Part shown: piece after piece, positions 57,060 to 63,461 of the stretch
Position numbering within the stretch: the first letter of the stretch is position 1
How the letters are laid out: each line of letters begins with the position of its first letter
DNA from: Crateriforma spongiae
GTDB taxonomy: Bacteria > Planctomycetota > Planctomycetia > Pirellulales > Pirellulaceae
Assembly: GCF_012290005.1 (NCBI RefSeq)
Contig: NZ_JAAXMS010000001.1
Coordinates: 620,001-684,000 of the forward strand
Direction: 5' to 3'
DNA: 64,000 nt
The notes under the pieces: model-generated
What the model was told of the DNA's origin: nothing
Databases searched by the model: none
The model's input: the letters and a program-made list of their open reading frames with translations, nothing else
Position numbers and translations under genes: made by a program

Positions 57060-57743
57060 CTAGCGAACCGCCGCGGTCCGGTCCTGAGTTTCAAAGTCTG
57101 CCACCAAGTCGTACAGCTCAAACCATAACGCGCGAAGGTCGGTCGTCGTATGAAGGTCGCGTGACGAAAGGTTGTTCAAAACCTTCTTGCGCAAACTCGA
57201 ATCAGCATCCGCCAGCAACTGATCGCACAATCGATGGATCAATTCCGAATTCAAACGGGTGGCAAAAAAGTGGTCCCACCCCAGGATGCGTCGATGGCTG
57301 GTGGCCAAACAGCGTGTTCCGGATCGACGTAGGTACCTGGTCAGCAACCAACCGTTCAATCGGCCGAGTTGCTCAATACCATCGATCACCAACCAGGGAT
57401 CCCGATGACGGTGATGGTTGGCCTTGCCCATCGACCGGCGCAGCAGATTCTGATTTTCACCCGGGCTCAGATCCGATGAAAGTGTCACCCAGATTTCTGT
57501 GCCCCAGTACTGTCTGATCCGGGGGACCAACTGGTGCAGCAGGGTCGTTTTGCCAGACCCGTGCGGACCGACGATCAACTTGGGTCCGGTCGGTTTGGGC
57601 CCCGTGTCAGGGGTGATGATCCGACGAACCAGATCGTCTTGCTGAATTTCCGGATCGACAAACTGATAGGGAATCGCGCCCGGTTTGACGCGTCGGACTC
57701 GAAACGGATTGTCGCTGGGAAAGACCGGCGACATTTCGGTCAT
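57060..57743 (-). CDS. Small P-loop ATPase of the uncharacterised cluster
   Basis: The protein has 227 residues. Walker A is GPHGSGKTT at 59-67 and a Walker-B-like strand LVIDGIEQL ends with D121. CLATSHR at ~145-151 is sensor-1-like and the C-terminal part is helical. It resembles small AAA+/STAND-type ATPases without a clear family. The start overlaps the upstream stop by 4 bp. It probably powers or switches the neighbouring membrane and beta-sandwich proteins; this is inference. Confidence 0.75.
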   Translation of the reverse strand: MTEMSPVFPSDNPFRVRRVKPGAIPYQFVDPEIQQDDLVRRIITPDTGPKPTGPKLIVGPHGSGKTTLLHQLVPRIRQYWGTEIWVTLSSDLSPGENQNLLRRSMGKANHHRHRDPWLVIDGIEQLGRLNGWLLTRYLRRSGTRCLATSHRRILGWDHFFATRLNSELIHRLCDQLLADADSSLRKKVLNNLSSRDLHTTTDLRALWFELYDLVADFETQDRTAAVR

Positions 57744-58372
57744 GACCGATCGACGAATCGCCGAAAAGTGCGGGGACGTTTCAGGCGTCGAAAGATCACC
57801 GTTTCCTCGCCCGACTTTTCCGCAGGCGTTGTTTCCGTCGATGCGTCCGCCAGGTTCCGTCGACCGGCCGGGGAAACGTCTTTGCCGTTTCCAGTCGTCT
57901 TTTCCAGGCCCGGCGCCGCGATGGGCCCGTCGGGCGATGTGTCAGCGACGACGAAGAAATGTTGTTCGGTGACGATTTCTTTCCCACCGTTCATGAACAA
58001 CCGGACACGCAAGCACCATCGGATCGACAGAAGCCGTCCGTGGTAGCTGAGCGGTGTCGCCGGCAAGCGGCAATCGAGTGCTTGGGGCGATCCCAAATCC
58101 ATCGCGGATAGTTCGGCGGTGTCGATGCGATGGAAATGATGGACCTGCAGATCTTCGTCGCCTTTGCCATCGGTGTGCCACAGAACGGACACTTCGATGC
58201 ACCGGATGCGATCGGGTTGGACTCGCGATACACGCCAAGACGCACGCAGCAACCCACCGGCGTTGTACCGGCCGTCTTCACGACACAAAGTGACGTTCAA
58301 CGCGGGTTGCGTCTCATGGACAAGCCCGGTGGATGAACGACGACGGGGAAACTGCGGCAGAACGATGGCCAA
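57740..58372 (-). CDS. Cytosolic beta-sandwich (arrestin/Spo0M-like) protein of the cluster
   Basis: The protein has 210 residues. The core is beta-rich (LNVTLCREDGRYNAGGLLRA; CIEVSVLWHTDG; RLLSIRWCLRVRLF; TEQHFFVVAD) and resembles an arrestin-like sandwich. Its IRWCLRV strand matches the IRWRLVV strand near the end of the upstream membrane protein, so the two may share a domain. The C-terminal 60 residues are Thr/Lys-rich and basic. TTG 58372 has GGAG 10 nt upstream and overlaps the upstream gene by 76 bp; TTG 58300, in a TTGA overlap with that stop, is an alternative start. Confidence 0.6.
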   Translation of the reverse strand: MAIVLPQFPRRRSSTGLVHETQPALNVTLCREDGRYNAGGLLRASWRVSRVQPDRIRCIEVSVLWHTDGKGDEDLQVHHFHRIDTAELSAMDLGSPQALDCRLPATPLSYHGRLLSIRWCLRVRLFMNGGKEIVTEQHFFVVADTSPDGPIAAPGLEKTTGNGKDVSPAGRRNLADASTETTPAEKSGEETVIFRRLKRPRTFRRFVDRS

Positions 58373-59400
58373 GGACGTGATTCTCCGGAAACGACTAATC
58401 GCCAGCGTATGGCGTTGTGGTTGCCCACGAACGAATGCATGACGTCGGGGGGCAGGTCCAAGTTGAATTGTTGCTGCCAGGGTGTGTGCGGGTCAACTCG
58501 GACGTTGTGTTCTTTCGCCAGATCTTGGTGAAATGCGTCGTAACGTTCGACACGAACGTCCGTGCCCTGATGAAAGAACGCTTCTTCCTGACAGGTCAGG
58601 TAAACCCTGAGGTTTTTGAGGCGTAACCGGCCCATTTGCGACACGTGGACGCGATATTGATTGCCGGGAACCAGCGGGTGATCGCTGATTTCAACAATCG
58701 TGGGGCCCACACCGGCCTGGCGTCGCAATTGGGCGACGAAGTGCCGAAACATTCGGACGCCCAGAAAACCGGTCGGGATCAACAATCCCGCCAGAACCCA
58801 ACGCGGACGCGAAAACCAAAATCCGCTCAGCACCACTGATAAAAGAGTGAACCAAGCGGCATTCCACAGCATGGTCAGTGCGGCGGTGCCGACGATGCCG
58901 GTTTCCTGGGTCGATGCGCCCAGGCGATACGTTTGACGTTCCCCCGGACTTTCGGTCAGCCGTTTGCCTTGGGGAACGCCCGGCAACTTGACCGTTTGAT
59001 CGGCCGTTGGACCGATCAATTCGATCTGTTTGGCGCGGGCCCGGATGGCCGAACGACGCTCGTTGCTGGCACCGATCTGCGAGATTCGATACAGAAGTCC
59101 CGCAATACCGGTCAGGATCGCGACGGCCGAAAGAATGCCCAGGATCCAAGTGCCCAGGCCGCTGGAGGTGATCTCCGGCGATACCTCGGGCAACGGAATC
59201 GGCGCCTGGCGGATGACGGCAACCCGACTGGCGATGATCAGCGACAGCCCGAACACGCCCAGCAAAAACAACCCGGCGTAGAACAGGGCTTCACCGACGA
59301 TGCCACGGAATGTCTGTCCCAGCACGCGGCTGCCACGCTTCTTGATCCAAGGACGCAGAAGGGCGGGACCGAAATCACGCGAACGGGACGAACGCGGCAT
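58297..59400 (-). CDS. Membrane protein with C-terminal beta-sandwich, first gene of the cluster
   Basis: The protein has 367 residues. Four hydrophobic helices lie at ~35-60, 80-105, 175-195 and 200-220; a polar loop between helices 2 and 3 carries SNERRSAIRARAKQIE. The last ~150 residues (VEISDHPLVPGNQYRVHVSQ; LRLKNLRVYLTCQEEAF; FNLDLPPD; AIRWRLVVSG) form a beta-sandwich resembling the downstream small protein. No catalytic motif. Its neighbours suggest a membrane complex run by the ATPase. It follows the stand-alone alpha-CTD gene by 46 bp. Confidence 0.65.
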   Translation of the reverse strand: MPRSSRSRDFGPALLRPWIKKRGSRVLGQTFRGIVGEALFYAGLFLLGVFGLSLIIASRVAVIRQAPIPLPEVSPEITSSGLGTWILGILSAVAILTGIAGLLYRISQIGASNERRSAIRARAKQIELIGPTADQTVKLPGVPQGKRLTESPGERQTYRLGASTQETGIVGTAALTMLWNAAWFTLLSVVLSGFWFSRPRWVLAGLLIPTGFLGVRMFRHFVAQLRRQAGVGPTIVEISDHPLVPGNQYRVHVSQMGRLRLKNLRVYLTCQEEAFFHQGTDVRVERYDAFHQDLAKEHNVRVDPHTPWQQQFNLDLPPDVMHSFVGNHNAIRWRLVVSGESRPWPSFCRSFPVVVHPPGLSMRRNPR

Positions 59401-59446: not shown

Positions 59447-59719
59447 TCAGCGGGGCTGATCCGGGCGATGGCCGGATCGGTAAAAGCCCAGGTCTTCCAG
59501 AGCACCGTAAACTTCTTCCAGCGTTTTTTCGCCGAAATTGCTGATGCTAAGCAGACGCTTGGGCGTCGCGTTGAGCAGATCGCGGACGGTCAAAATGCCG
59601 GTTTCTTCCAGACAGTTGGTCGTCCGAACCGTCAACTTCATCTCCGCGATACTCAGATCCATCCGCTCACGACGCAGTCGGGCCTGTTCGTCCGCTTGGC
59701 TCAGTGGAATGCGGGTCAT
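59447..59719 (-). CDS. Stand-alone RNA-polymerase alpha-CTD-like protein
   Basis: The protein has about 90 residues and consists of little more than one alpha-CTD domain: MKLTVRTTNCLEETGILTV, then LLSISNFGEKTLEEVYGAL. By eye it keeps the R, N-C, G and K of the DNA-contact set in E. coli alpha-CTD. It is not the polymerase subunit. The ATG at 59719 is chosen because AAGGGAG lies about 7 nt upstream; the frame opens 12 codons earlier. It lies between wecB and the ATPase cluster on the same strand and may regulate either. Confidence 0.8.
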   Translation of the reverse strand: MTRIPLSQADEQARLRRERMDLSIAEMKLTVRTTNCLEETGILTVRDLLNATPKRLLSISNFGEKTLEEVYGALEDLGFYRSGHRPDQPR

Positions 59720-59957
59720 CGCAAACTCCCTTTTGATGTGATCGATGATCGTCACCGGCGTGGGCCGGCCAAATTCAATTGACCGATATCACCAACCCGG
59801 CTGACTACCTAATTCCATGGCGGGGAAAGATAGCCGATCCTGCGAAATCTGGCAAACATCGACGCCGAATTGTCGCCATCGGGGCAGGAACCCGGTGTGC
59901 CGGTTCGCCGTTCGACTGGACAAGAGAGCCATCCGGAAACCCGCCCCTTGCCGGCGT

Positions 59958-61088
59958 TTAGGAAAACACTTCCGCCATCCAGTCGGCGATCTGGACCGAC
60001 GACGTGCCGTCACCGTAGGGATTGTCGCGAATATTGGCTGCATCGGTTGATCCGCCCGCGGCCCGACCGGATTGCAGCGACTGCGAGACACTGTCGACGA
60101 TCTTTTGCCGGTCGGTACCGACCAAGTGTGCCAATCCGGCGTCGACCGCTTCAGGCCGCTCGGTTTTTTCGCGAGTGACGAAGACGTCACATCCCAGCGA
60201 CGGCGCTTCTTCCTGCACACCACCCGAATCGGTCAGCACCACGCGGGCACGGTCCATCAGCCAGACAAATTCGCGGTAGTCCGCCGGTGGCACCAAGTGG
60301 ATGTTGTCATGTCCGTCCAGACGCTGATGGACCGGGCCTTTGACGTTGGGGTTCAGGTGCACCGGATAAATGAATTGGGCCTGGGGATGGCGATCGGACA
60401 GTTCGGCAATGGCGTCACACATGTCCGCCAATCCCTGCCCAAAGTTCTCGCGGCGATGGCCGGTAATTAGGACGACGTCGTCGGCCATCGCGAAAGGATA
60501 CTTTTGCGACCAAGTTTCGGAGTTCGCGCGTTCGCGGCCAACCGCCCACATTAGCGCGTCGATCACGGTGTTGCCCGTCACACGAATCTTTGATTCATCG
60601 ATGCCTTCGCGTCGTAATGCATTGGCCGCGCCTTCGGTGGGGGCACAGTGCAGCTGAGTGACGATGGCCGCGACGCGACGATTGAATTCTTCCGGCCAAG
60701 GCGCCCAAAGATCTCCGGTGCGAAGACCTGCTTCGACATGCACCACCGGAATCTTCTGATAAAAGGCGGCAACCGACGCGGTCATCACGGTGGTGGTGTC
60801 GCCTTGCACCACGACGCAGTCCGGCTTGGCTCTGACCAACGCATCGGTGACCGCCTGCATGCATGAAGCGGTCAATTCAGCCAACGTTTGACCGTGCTTC
60901 ATCAGACGCAAATCAACGTCCGGCCGGATTTCAAAATACCCAAGAACTTGTTCCAGCATTTCGCGGTGTTGACCGGTGCTGCAAACGATCGGATCAAAGT
61001 CGTCGCTGCGTTCCAGGCAATGACGGATCAGCGGGGCTAGTTTAACGGCTTCGGGACGAGTTCCCAGCACGATGAAGGGGCGTATCAC
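59958..61088 (-). CDS. wecB: UDP-N-acetylglucosamine 2-epimerase
   Basis: The protein has 376 residues with a GTG start. FIVLGTRPEAVKLAPL, VQGDTTT, HVEAGLRTGD and TDSGGVQEEAPSLG are conserved through the non-hydrolysing 2-epimerase family. It converts UDP-GlcNAc to UDP-ManNAc for surface polysaccharides. The nearest neighbours are not polysaccharide genes. Confidence 0.95.
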   Translation of the reverse strand: MIRPFIVLGTRPEAVKLAPLIRHCLERSDDFDPIVCSTGQHREMLEQVLGYFEIRPDVDLRLMKHGQTLAELTASCMQAVTDALVRAKPDCVVVQGDTTTVMTASVAAFYQKIPVVHVEAGLRTGDLWAPWPEEFNRRVAAIVTQLHCAPTEGAANALRREGIDESKIRVTGNTVIDALMWAVGRERANSETWSQKYPFAMADDVVLITGHRRENFGQGLADMCDAIAELSDRHPQAQFIYPVHLNPNVKGPVHQRLDGHDNIHLVPPADYREFVWLMDRARVVLTDSGGVQEEAPSLGCDVFVTREKTERPEAVDAGLAHLVGTDRQKIVDSVSQSLQSGRAAGGSTDAANIRDNPYGDGTSSVQIADWMAEVFS

Positions 61089-61767
61089 GGTTGCTTGCTT
61101 ACCTTTTCACTTGGCAATTTCGTTTTTCGTTTTCAAAGACGCTTTGACCAAAACCGTGGGCATCGCTGGCCGGACGGTTCGCCCCAGGCAGCTTGGTTTT
61201 CCGGCGTCGCAGGACGTCCAGGATGATAGTCCGAAAGCGGTGCGTCATTTCAGTACGCGTCCAAATGTCGTCTCCGGCGCACGTGTTGTCTCCGGCGGAA
61301 GGCGGCGTGACGCTGTCTTATCGGAACCACGCCGGAGACTGGCTTTGTTGGTGAAACCGACTTTCCGGTTTGTAACGCTTTTGCCGGGAAACAGGCGGCC
61401 GTCTTGAACGGTTCGGGCGTCCGGGCGGTGTGGTGAAAAGGCAACGACTGTGGCGTGGACTAAACAGACCGGGCGGTTTGGCGAAGATTCCGGGGCCTGG
61501 GGGCACAGAAAGCGTCGTTTTTCCACAGATTTTTCACCAAATTGCTAAAGGCTTGCGTAGTCTTGATTTGTCGGGATACCGGCGTGTGGCGGGTCTTTTC
61601 CCCACCCCGCGTCGCGCGAATGATTTCGACAACGTGACTGCCGTCGCCGGTTGGTCACGTCCATCGCCGCTGTTGGCGGCCGTTCCCGAGTCGAAAGGCC
61701 ACCACCGGCTGCTTCGCTCCTTCGGAACGCCAGTTTCACAACATCGATCGACCGACCCAACACCACC
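61089..61767. other. Divergent intergenic region with repeated GTCTCCGGCG
   Basis: Between wecB (minus) and the repeat-protein gene (plus). The 10-mer GTCTCCGGCG occurs directly at 61270-61279 and 61288-61297, 18 bp apart, and inverted at 61330-61339. No other copies of this density are noticed. No gene is supported here; both genes' promoters must lie in this stretch. Confidence 0.5.
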
Positions 61768-63384
61768 ATGTTTGACCGATCCATTCGCCGTCTGGCCGCT
61801 AGTGTTTTGTGCGGGACCGTTTCGCTGTCCCAAGTCGGTGGTTTTGCGCTGGCACAAGACGCCTGTTGTTTCGAACCTGCCTATCGACTGCAGTGCGAAA
61901 CCGTGGTCCAGAAAGTACCCCAAACGCGGTACCGTCTTTCGACCAAGACCGACTATGTCGAAGAGACTCAGCTGTCCTATCGACCGGTGTTGAAGTACCG
62001 CCAAGAGGAACGCGAATACCGTGTCGCCAAGCCGGTCACCGAAACCCGGTATGTCGAAGAAACCTATTCGGTGCTCAAGCCCGTCACCGAAACGTCGTAT
62101 CGCGACGAAGAAGTGACACGGACACGATACGTCGATGAAACGTCCGAACGTGAAGAATCGGTGACTCAGTATCAGCCGGTTACCGAGACAAAGTACTACC
62201 AAAAACAGTACACGGTCCAGCGCCCGGTCACCGAAACCCAGATGCGCGAACAGCAATACACTGTTCAGCGTCCGGTCACCGAAACGATCATGCAGACGCA
62301 GCAGTACACGTCGATGCGACCGGTCACCACGGTTCAAAACCAAGTGGTCGACGCCGGTGGCTACGTCGCCCAACAAGTCGTGACTCCGGGACAACTGCAA
62401 TACGGTGTCGGTTGGCAGCGTAATGCCTATGCCGTCCCCGGTCCGCTGGGAATCTTCTCCCTGAATCGGGGTGCACCGGTATTGGTTCCTCAGGTGACGC
62501 CCCCGACCGTGCAAACACAGATGGCATACCGTCCAAACTACGTGAATCAACAAGTCGCTCGGACGACATACGTGCCGGAAGTCCAACAGGTCCAAACGCC
62601 TGTTCAAGTCCAACGAATGCAAACCGAAGTCGTTCGGCAACAAATTCCGGTGCAGGTTCAACGTATGGAAAGCGAAGTCGTCACGGAAAACGTGCCCGTG
62701 CAAACGACTCGTATGGTGCCCGTTCAGCTGACCCGCAAAGTTCCCGTGACGGTTCGGCGTCCGGTGACCGAAACGCTGACTCGACGGGTACCGGTCACCA
62801 GCCAACGTTGGGTTCGTGAGGAAAAGGTTCGTAAGGTGCCGGTCCAGACGACACGCATGGTTTACGAGACGAAGAAGGAAGTCGTGAACGTGCCGTACTA
62901 CGAACAAGAGGCCGTTGAACGCAAAGTCATGCGTCCCGTGACACGTCAGGAATACGTCCCCTACACCGTCATGGTGGACATGCCACAAACGGTCGTGCAG
63001 CGAACTCCGCTCAGCTACATCGATCCGTTCAGCCCGGCGATCAGCCAAGGCTACAGTTCGTTCAGCGTTCCGGTTTCCGGATCAACAATTTATGAATCTC
63101 CGATCGTCACCGGATCCACGGTCGTTCAGCCGTCGGAGGTCGTCGAAAGCCGATCACCGGCCAAAGAGGATGACGAGGACGCGGAAATGACCGAAGATGC
63201 ACAAACCGAGTTAGAAGGCGTGCGCCGGGATTATTCCGATGATGACAACGCCGACGCCGATGATTTGCAAGAGCTGCCGCAACCGCAATTGAATGGCGAC
63301 GATGTGCAATTGAATCCCGCCACCGAAGCGACCACCACTGGTTTTCGCGTGACTTGGAGTCCGATGGTCGATCGGGAAGCCTGA
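61768..63384 (+). CDS. Secreted 16-residue-repeat (PVTET-type) protein
   Basis: The protein has 538 residues with a signal peptide (RLAASVLCGTVSLSQVGGFALA). Nearly all of the central part is a 16-residue repeat led by P-V-T/Q, in two arrays separated by about 77 residues. A Glu/Asp-rich C-terminal tail follows. There is no catalytic motif or membrane helix beyond the signal. The ATG at 61768 gives a proper signal peptide; the frame runs 39 codons further upstream. Likely a cell-surface or periplasmic structural protein; the family is known mainly from planctomycetes. Confidence 0.85.
   Translation: MFDRSIRRLAASVLCGTVSLSQVGGFALAQDACCFEPAYRLQCETVVQKVPQTRYRLSTKTDYVEETQLSYRPVLKYRQEEREYRVAKPVTETRYVEETYSVLKPVTETSYRDEEVTRTRYVDETSEREESVTQYQPVTETKYYQKQYTVQRPVTETQMREQQYTVQRPVTETIMQTQQYTSMRPVTTVQNQVVDAGGYVAQQVVTPGQLQYGVGWQRNAYAVPGPLGIFSLNRGAPVLVPQVTPPTVQTQMAYRPNYVNQQVARTTYVPEVQQVQTPVQVQRMQTEVVRQQIPVQVQRMESEVVTENVPVQTTRMVPVQLTRKVPVTVRRPVTETLTRRVPVTSQRWVREEKVRKVPVQTTRMVYETKKEVVNVPYYEQEAVERKVMRPVTRQEYVPYTVMVDMPQTVVQRTPLSYIDPFSPAISQGYSSFSVPVSGSTIYESPIVTGSTVVQPSEVVESRSPAKEDDEDAEMTEDAQTELEGVRRDYSDDDNADADDLQELPQPQLNGDDVQLNPATEATTTGFRVTWSPMVDREA
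61936..62367 (+). repeat. Array 1: nine in-frame 48-bp units
   Basis: Units begin every 48 bp at 61936, 61984, 62032, 62080, 62128, 62176, 62224, 62272 and 62320. The unit encodes P-V-T-E-T-x-Y-x-x-E-x-Y-x-V-x-R/K. The best copies start at 62032, 62080, 62176, 62224 and 62272; the first, fifth and last are diverged. Confidence 0.85.
62599..62982 (+). repeat. Array 2: eight in-frame 48-bp units
   Basis: Eight units of 48 bp from 62599. The encoded unit is P-V-Q/T-x-x-R-x-x-x-E-x-V-x-x-x-V, with clear copies at 62599, 62647, 62695, 62743, 62791, 62839 and 62935. The seventh copy (62887) is diverged. Confidence 0.85.
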
Positions 63385-63425: not shown

Positions 63426-63461
63426 AACCGCGGATGCACCGATGTGTATCCGCGGTTTTTT
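63426..63461 (+). terminator. Intrinsic terminator
   Basis: AACCGCGGAT (63426-63435) pairs with ATCCGCGGTT (63448-63457), with further pairing inside the loop, followed by six T residues (63456-63461). It ends the repeat-protein transcript. Confidence 0.92.

Follow-up and report, generated by a model that had tools for sequence, protein, structure and literature searches.

The major wall proteins of planctomycetes are named after a three-letter motif, YTV. In Gemmata they have been reported as major constituents of the wall (PMC5287468), and in Rhodopirellula and the Gemmataceae, including Tuwongella, as cysteine-rich proteins of wall preparations, in which pores were also seen in the case of Tuwongella (PMC8567305). 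The genes essential in Planctopirus include a YTV gene as well (PMC10632474). The Pfam model of the family (PF07639) describes 43 residues of local repeat, and a two-arm architecture lies outside its scope. Among the matches listed in a search of the open-access literature, to which most subscription papers do not belong, we found no account of YTV structure or of a hairpin architecture. As far as we found within that literature, the family is known, and its molecular build, including the two-arm hairpin architecture proposed here, is apparently undescribed.

The window that we analyzed is a 64,000-nucleotide stretch of the Crateriforma spongiae genome (contig NZ_JAAXMS010000001.1), and the gene of interest is an open reading frame on its forward strand (positions 61768..63384, stop codon 63382-63384). 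Its 538-residue product, the window protein, scores 77.3 bits against PF07639 (cut-off 21, E 9e-22) over six stretches and by its sequence is a YTV-family member; NCBIfam returned no family match for it. Residues 1 to 30 (61768..61857) resemble a signal peptide when judged by eye, with the conserved ...AQ site falling at ...FALAQ/DACC and Q30 invariant in 17 sequences. Like the described YTV wall proteins, the window protein matches PF07639, and by eye its start looks like that of a secreted protein. The family match, together with the reports from other planctomycetes of YTV proteins in SDS-insoluble wall preparations, supports the view, put forward in a first-pass annotation of this DNA, that the gene encodes an apparently secreted, elongated, structural protein of a planctomycete, probably of the wall. 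It differs from the described proteins in not being cysteine-rich: only 4 of its 538 residues are cysteines, one of them in the signal peptide, and the three of the mature protein (C33, C34, and C43) all lie in an N-terminal motif, DACCFEPAYRLQC (61858..61896).

The most conspicuous feature of the window protein is its repeats. Array 1 (61936..62367) comprises nine 48-bp units, the ninth of which runs into the tip described below (VDAGGYV), and array 2 (62599..62982) comprises eight. Unit starts fall at 61936+48k and 62599+48k, so that all 17 are in frame on the exact 48-bp grid that the first-pass annotation had reported; in the protein they occupy residues 57 to 185 and 278 to 390 in steps of 16. 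Self-identity of residues 30 to 430 at lag 16 lies 15.7 standard deviations above 2,000 shuffles (10.0 at lag 32 and 7.4 at lag 48), and the 16-residue period is thus far beyond chance; the same region also carries an 8-residue subperiod (z 5.4). The unit leaders proposed earlier were broadly right but less uniform than claimed. P-V opens seven of the nine units of array 1, with the full P-V-T-E-T in only five, and PVQ or PVT opens seven of the eight units of array 2, one unit differing. By eye, a degenerate form of the repeat extends outward of both arrays (approximately residues 39 to 56 and 406 to 414). A tandem array is called at the DNA level only at 62209-62328 (2.5 copies of 48 bp); with the DNA repeat weak and the protein period strong, it is the protein and not the DNA that preserves the period. 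The protein ends in an acidic tail (residues 415 to 538; 63010..63381), which is poorly predicted, with ten-residue pLDDT means of 40 to 48 from residue 421 onward.

YTV genes are widespread among the relatives of this bacterium. Its own genome holds three: the window gene, one near 499 kb (G000:C4), and one near 283 kb (G000:C8), to which we refer as the C4 and C8 paralogues. Counting that genome, the window protein found matches in 40 of 40 genomes. With its homologues as queries, matches came from 144 of the 146 genomes searched within the order and from 147 of the 148 within the class. The PF07639 model matched 23 of 294 genomes across the phylum, 21 of them within the window's class, and none of 14 control genomes. 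The two matches outside the class are weak (E 4.7e-5 and 7.8e-4); these apart, the phylum sample agrees with the restriction to a single class (Planctomycetales or Planctomycetia) given in the literature.

Structure prediction divided the window protein into two long arms. With an alignment of 51 sequences as input (the window protein and 50 of 58 homologous loci), strand assignments in the AlphaFold2 model gave unbroken strands at residues 39 to 195 (arm 1, 61882..62352, holding array 1) and 258 to 414 (arm 2, 62539..63009, holding array 2), each of 157 residues. Between them lies a tip domain of short strands (residues 196 to 257; 62353..62538), in which the alignment shows G197, P207, and G208 to be conserved, and beyond them an unstructured tail. 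Mean pLDDT was 64 and pTM 0.24, and most mid-arm residues (approximately 131 to 164 and 290 to 316) fell below a pLDDT of 50. A second model, of the cysteine-rich homologue L085 with 29 others, gave strands at 42 to 205 and 230 to 393, both of 164 residues (mean pLDDT 70, pTM 0.23). The first-pass annotation had suggested such a prediction as a check against a disordered chain, and the arrays did come out as strands, though with this low confidence in mid-arm. Equal strands are what one antiparallel hairpin would give, in models whose confidence is too low for them to stand alone.

Neither the window protein nor its alignment profile retrieved a solved relative by sequence. A Foldseek search with the window model gave no match under 1e-3, the best being the phi29 collar (6qz9) at an E value of 3.4e-2, and the L085 model gave a single one under that value, a local match to the same collar (E 6.7e-6). 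Among the top neighbors of the models were lysenin, aerolysin, MAC/perforin, and the phi29 collar, with TM-scores of about 0.1. All of these contain long antiparallel hairpins; we found no sequence relation between them and the YTV arms, which are longer and whose proline pattern speaks against a barrel. With beta-solenoids and repetitive surface adhesins the window protein shares a short exact period and the character of an elongated surface protein, but these pair neighboring repeats, whereas in the window protein the pairing links two distant arrays.

The arms are matched in length across the family. We measured them between four sequence anchors, one at either limit of each arm. Besides the window protein, 85 homologues were measured, which makes 86 proteins in all; L002 to L008 (overlapping pieces of the window gene and paralogues), L010 (a 99% copy of the window protein), L001 (a paralogue), and L096 (a fragment) were left out. 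At the loosest threshold the two arms were exactly equal in 80 of the 86 rows (76 and 74 at stricter ones), with anchor-to-anchor lengths of 130 (n=51), 146 (n=15), 174 (n=12), 162 (n=1), and 128 (n=1). A second set of 60, which includes near-copies of the first, had equal arms in 54 rows (53 at 130 and one at 114). Pooled, and with near-copies and the window protein included, 134 of 146 rows were exactly equal, although these rows are related to one another and do not represent 146 independent cases, and the tree described below calls for only four changes of length. The 12 rows unequal by automatic anchors were L014, L022, L025, L026, L027, L038, L128, L136, L144, L150, L151, and L156; eight were inspected, all but L014, L038, L150, and L151, and of these four, L014 and L038 were equal under our first anchors, though with poor anchors. 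Those first anchors had given equality in 70 of 86 rows, most of the 16 exceptions arising from an N-anchor placed on a later unit or a missed C-anchor. The leftmost and rightmost anchors were adopted after these exceptions, among which L048 had a wrongly trimmed start. Tip length varies apart from the arms, with anchor spacings of 51 to 74 in relatives.

A tree of 83 rows implied at least four changes of arm length, and both arms agree at each length. It was drawn without L025, L034, and L038 and with arm labels set by hand, ambiguous rows (114, 98, and similar) being taken as 130 and L048 as 146. L012 offers the simplest example: each of its arms is short by exactly one unit of 16 residues and the register is kept, whereas the first-pass annotation had named a loss of register in close relatives as evidence against its reading. 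No change in the number of units is seen in a same-genus homologue, which is 99% identical across the same 538 residues, and the difference of the 174-residue group is not made of whole units. Lengths of 174 and 146 differ by 28 and lengths of 128 and 130 by 2, neither a multiple of 16, and the arms are still equal; such steps, matched in both arms, imply that each arm is coupled to the length of its partner and does not change by whole repeats only. Pairwise global alignments did not serve as proof that changes come in whole units only: the gap was a multiple of 16 in 64 of the 124 cases for arm 1 and in 26 of the 205 for arm 2, and many gaps were split, for which reason we relied on anchor distances.

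Covariation between the arms showed which residues are coupled. Mutual information between the two arms was computed over 141 diagonals (d), the offset of each position being its distance from the tip and no pairing being assumed. The first set was restricted to 130-residue arms; leaving out L009, L034, L038, and other arm lengths left 55 proteins, and removal of those at least 90% identical or too short left 50. Of the 60 further proteins, 23 were dropped as too short or at least 90% identical to another, which left a hold-out set of 37, all less than 90% identical to the first. The group to which the window protein belongs, with 146-residue arms, lies outside both sets. In the 50 proteins, mutual information was highest on the diagonal d=0, with a z of 8.5, followed by d=-2 with 5.2 and d=+2 with 3.4. 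The 37 hold-out proteins gave nearly the same values (7.8, 5.6, and 3.4), and every other diagonal stayed below z 2 in both sets. With all 87 proteins, d=0 reached z 8.6. It also ranked first in each quarter of the 132-residue arm in both sets, and 72 of the 132 strongest pairs in the joint set had d between -3 and 3. The strongest pairs at d=-2 fell on even offsets in 23 of 23 cases and those at d=+2 on odd offsets in 12 of 14, a split that a twisted ladder, with its two faces, would be expected to show.

In the 87 nonredundant proteins, every one of 1,465 arm prolines (561 in arm 1 and 904 in arm 2) sits at an even offset, as do 205 arm tryptophans against 1 at an odd offset. In a two-stranded ribbon, the residues of one parity point their NH groups outward, where proline is harmless; a sheet or barrel would need those NH groups. 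Facing charged pairs at d=0 were opposite in 989 cases and alike in 45, compared with 1,275 to 182 at the next best offset (d=+2), and the favored facing partners of proline were methionine, phenylalanine, tyrosine, or tryptophan. The features of a giant antiparallel beta-hairpin, namely, equal arms, in-register covariation, and one-sided proline, are all found.

To locate the fold in proteins of other arm lengths, we scanned every possible fold sum with pair scores derived from the d=0 pairs of 130-residue arms. The window protein gave i+j=453, with 113 bits, pairing residues 38 to 192 with 261 to 415, compared with 43 bits for the second-best sum and 25 for the highest-scoring of 30 shuffles. 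The expected sum came out on top in 29 of 29 rows of other arm lengths, the window protein included. Both paralogues in the genome show the same two-arm symmetry. For the C4 paralogue the scan gave an arm length of 222 residues at 165 bits, against 75 for the next sum and 26 for the best of 10 shuffles. The C8 paralogue had its top sum at 820, which scored 154 bits where the next sum scored 76 and the shuffles 30; its arms are about 300 residues long by eye without glycine-rich stretches, and the scan itself extended them to 377. In 12 of 12 further YTV frames, hand-picked from other genomes, the top sum stood well above the shuffles; their arms measure 150 to 364 residues, and their prolines keep to one parity apart from two in L166. 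The register is less sure in some long and very regular paralogues: the margin over a shifted sum is small for L165 (204 versus 184 bits), L168 (203 versus 184), L167 (179 versus 150), and some others of the 12.

The cysteines for which YTV proteins are known vary widely among homologues, from 0 to 44. Past residue 60, the commonest spacing between cysteines is 16 (138 of 2,897 pairs at most 80 apart), and multiples of 16 account for 422, counts that are uncorrected for the relatedness of the homologues; in arm 2, one repeat phase is a cysteine in 46% of cases. The window protein, L011, and L012 are without this cysteine ladder and keep only the N-terminal CC...C motif, C33, C34, and C43 being identical in all three. 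We considered cross-strand disulfides within the hairpin and rejected them: facing cysteine pairs numbered 0 at d=0 and 17 over d=-3 to +2, against a mean of 15.6 per offset, although a count of zero is by itself not rare (6 of 121 offsets have none). The arms of the C4 paralogue contain 2 and 39 cysteines, none of them facing. Among the 12 further frames, 10 had no facing pair, L166 had one, and L167 had eight, a count biased by pair scores that penalize Cys-Cys. Since cysteines rarely face each other, disulfides would be expected between neighboring ribbons or chains; in the window protein, which has no ladder, cross-linking would be limited to the base of the hairpin. Separately, we observed that the C4 paralogue (L158) carries a one-sided cysteine comb at approximately residues 448 to 669 of its 724-residue frame, with 39 on one arm versus 2 on the other.

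Taken together, these observations make it highly probable that the window protein is a secreted YTV wall protein whose arms, residues 39 to 195 and 258 to 414, pair (i+j=453) into one two-stranded antiparallel beta-ribbon. The pairing itself, its register, the equal arm lengths, the one-sided proline, and the generality across the family are well supported by the computation; we infer the assembly, the location of the window protein, and its function. The alternative that deserves most attention retains the antiparallel pairing of the two arms and places it between different molecules, as domain-swapped dimers or an endless linked chain. Covariation, equal lengths, and charge matching would look identical whether the partners belong to one chain or to two; a tip of variable length (anchor spacing 51 to 74) could open, and a wall needs links among its molecules. 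Yet AlphaFold2 twice gave two equal adjacent strands from single chains, albeit with one chain as its only input, and no further covariation diagonal that might hint at assembly stands out, the highest (z 3.2) being two unrelated sums within arm 2. We regard pairing between molecules as improbable, if well worth keeping in mind.

A different arrangement would set the hairpins side by side as a giant beta-barrel or continuous sheet, such as a pore wall of the aerolysin type. The Foldseek neighbors fit this idea, because subunits of the phi29 collar, lysenin, aerolysin, and MAC each put one long hairpin into a barrel. So do the pores seen in Tuwongella wall preparations (PMC8567305). The absence of a second covariation diagonal that stands out and the 1,465 prolines on one parity both argue against it, the latter on the textbook ground that the strands would need their outward NH groups, and we consider it distinctly unlikely. 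The regular solenoid proposed in the first-pass annotation, with one turn per 16 residues, is the least probable of the readings that we weighed. It would account for the exact period, and it predicts parallel contacts between i and i+16 inside an array and no relation between arrays. Covariation at a within-arm offset of 16 was weak (z 2.5 in arm 1 and 1.7 in arm 2, among 99 offsets), a level that homogenization of repeats would also give, against z 8.6 across the arms; moreover, nothing in a solenoid leads one to expect arrays of equal length, covariation between them, or matched charges, and both models show one unbroken strand per array, of 157 residues in the window protein. Hardly more credible is the reading of the window protein as a common YTV repeat protein that lacks much fixed structure, its repeats serving as binding motifs along a flexible chain. 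The low AlphaFold2 confidence in mid-arm and the disordered tail point that way, but such a chain would keep neither residue-by-residue coupling along a whole arm nor proline parity.

Under the two-stranded ribbon within one chain, the following course of events can be envisaged. After export, the chain would fold back at its tip (residues 196 to 257), and the arms would zip by matched charges into about 157 residue pairs. At 0.33 nm per residue, the value for an extended strand, the fully extended ribbon would be about 50 nm long. The 16-residue period may correspond to about one full twist of the ribbon, every 16th residue facing the same way, and the prolines at outward-NH positions may keep the free edges from recruiting further strands. 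A two-stranded ribbon is usually unstable alone, and the YTV ribbon must therefore pack against something; within the wall, ribbons would presumably lie next to one another or face to face. Interchain disulfides could cross-link them, through the cysteine ladder in many relatives and through the N-terminal CC...C alone in the window protein, and tip and tail might mediate attachment. The end product would be a rigid, SDS-resistant protein wall.

If the two-arm hairpin is correct, it would explain how planctomycetes could build a wall of protein. A residue-exact fold predicts which residues face each other, a molecule of about 50 nm, disulfides between rather than within chains, and a ruler-like control of length through matched changes in both arms. 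Its length would, to our knowledge, be unusual for a single beta-hairpin, and it would thereby be of interest for protein folding, export, and materials. We lean, with some reserve, toward a broader view in which YTV proteins form a new fibrous class: two-stranded beta-ribbons, each made by a single chain, whose arms range from 130 to over 300 residues in length (about 40 to 110 nm) and which twist once per 16 residues, with proline-guarded edges and with disulfide ladders linking them to their neighbors, constituting a protein chain-mail that does part of the role of peptidoglycan in Planctomycetia and whose length is set gene by gene via matched insertions.

The YTV gene (61768-63384) looks, from its sequence surroundings, like a stand-alone unit. 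A terminator-like structure, made up of a 14-pair stem and a T-run after it (63426..63457, forward strand), has its stem beginning 42 bp past the stop codon. Four terminator-like sites were found in the region versus 3.6 expected in shuffles, the stems of the other three having 5 to 8 pairs. None of five flanking window proteins was found in any of 58 related loci, several of them short, at 1e-5 or at 1e-8, while all 58 contain YTV. Upstream and divergent lies a UDP-N-acetylglucosamine 2-epimerase gene (59958-61088, reverse strand; PF02350, 364 bits), which was not found beside the YTV gene in the 58 related loci.

Several minor features of the region were also recorded. A stand-alone 102-residue frame (59447-59755, reverse strand) consists mostly of the C-terminal domain of the RNA polymerase alpha subunit (PF03118, 71 bits), the rest of the subunit being absent. 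A small P-loop-like protein (57060-57743, reverse strand) has weak STAND/AAA-type matches, the best to nSTAND_NTPase5 at 28.5 bits, under the cut-off of 34, and adjoins two proteins without a Pfam match (57740-58372 and 58297-59400). The strand opposite the YTV gene holds an antisense open frame of 504 residues (61534-63048, reverse strand). At the locus of the C8 paralogue (L157), the longest antisense frame has 820 residues and gives a false signal in the fold-sum scan (176 bits, shuffles 164). Long antisense frames of this kind are probably a by-product of the codon usage of the repeats and can be misannotated.
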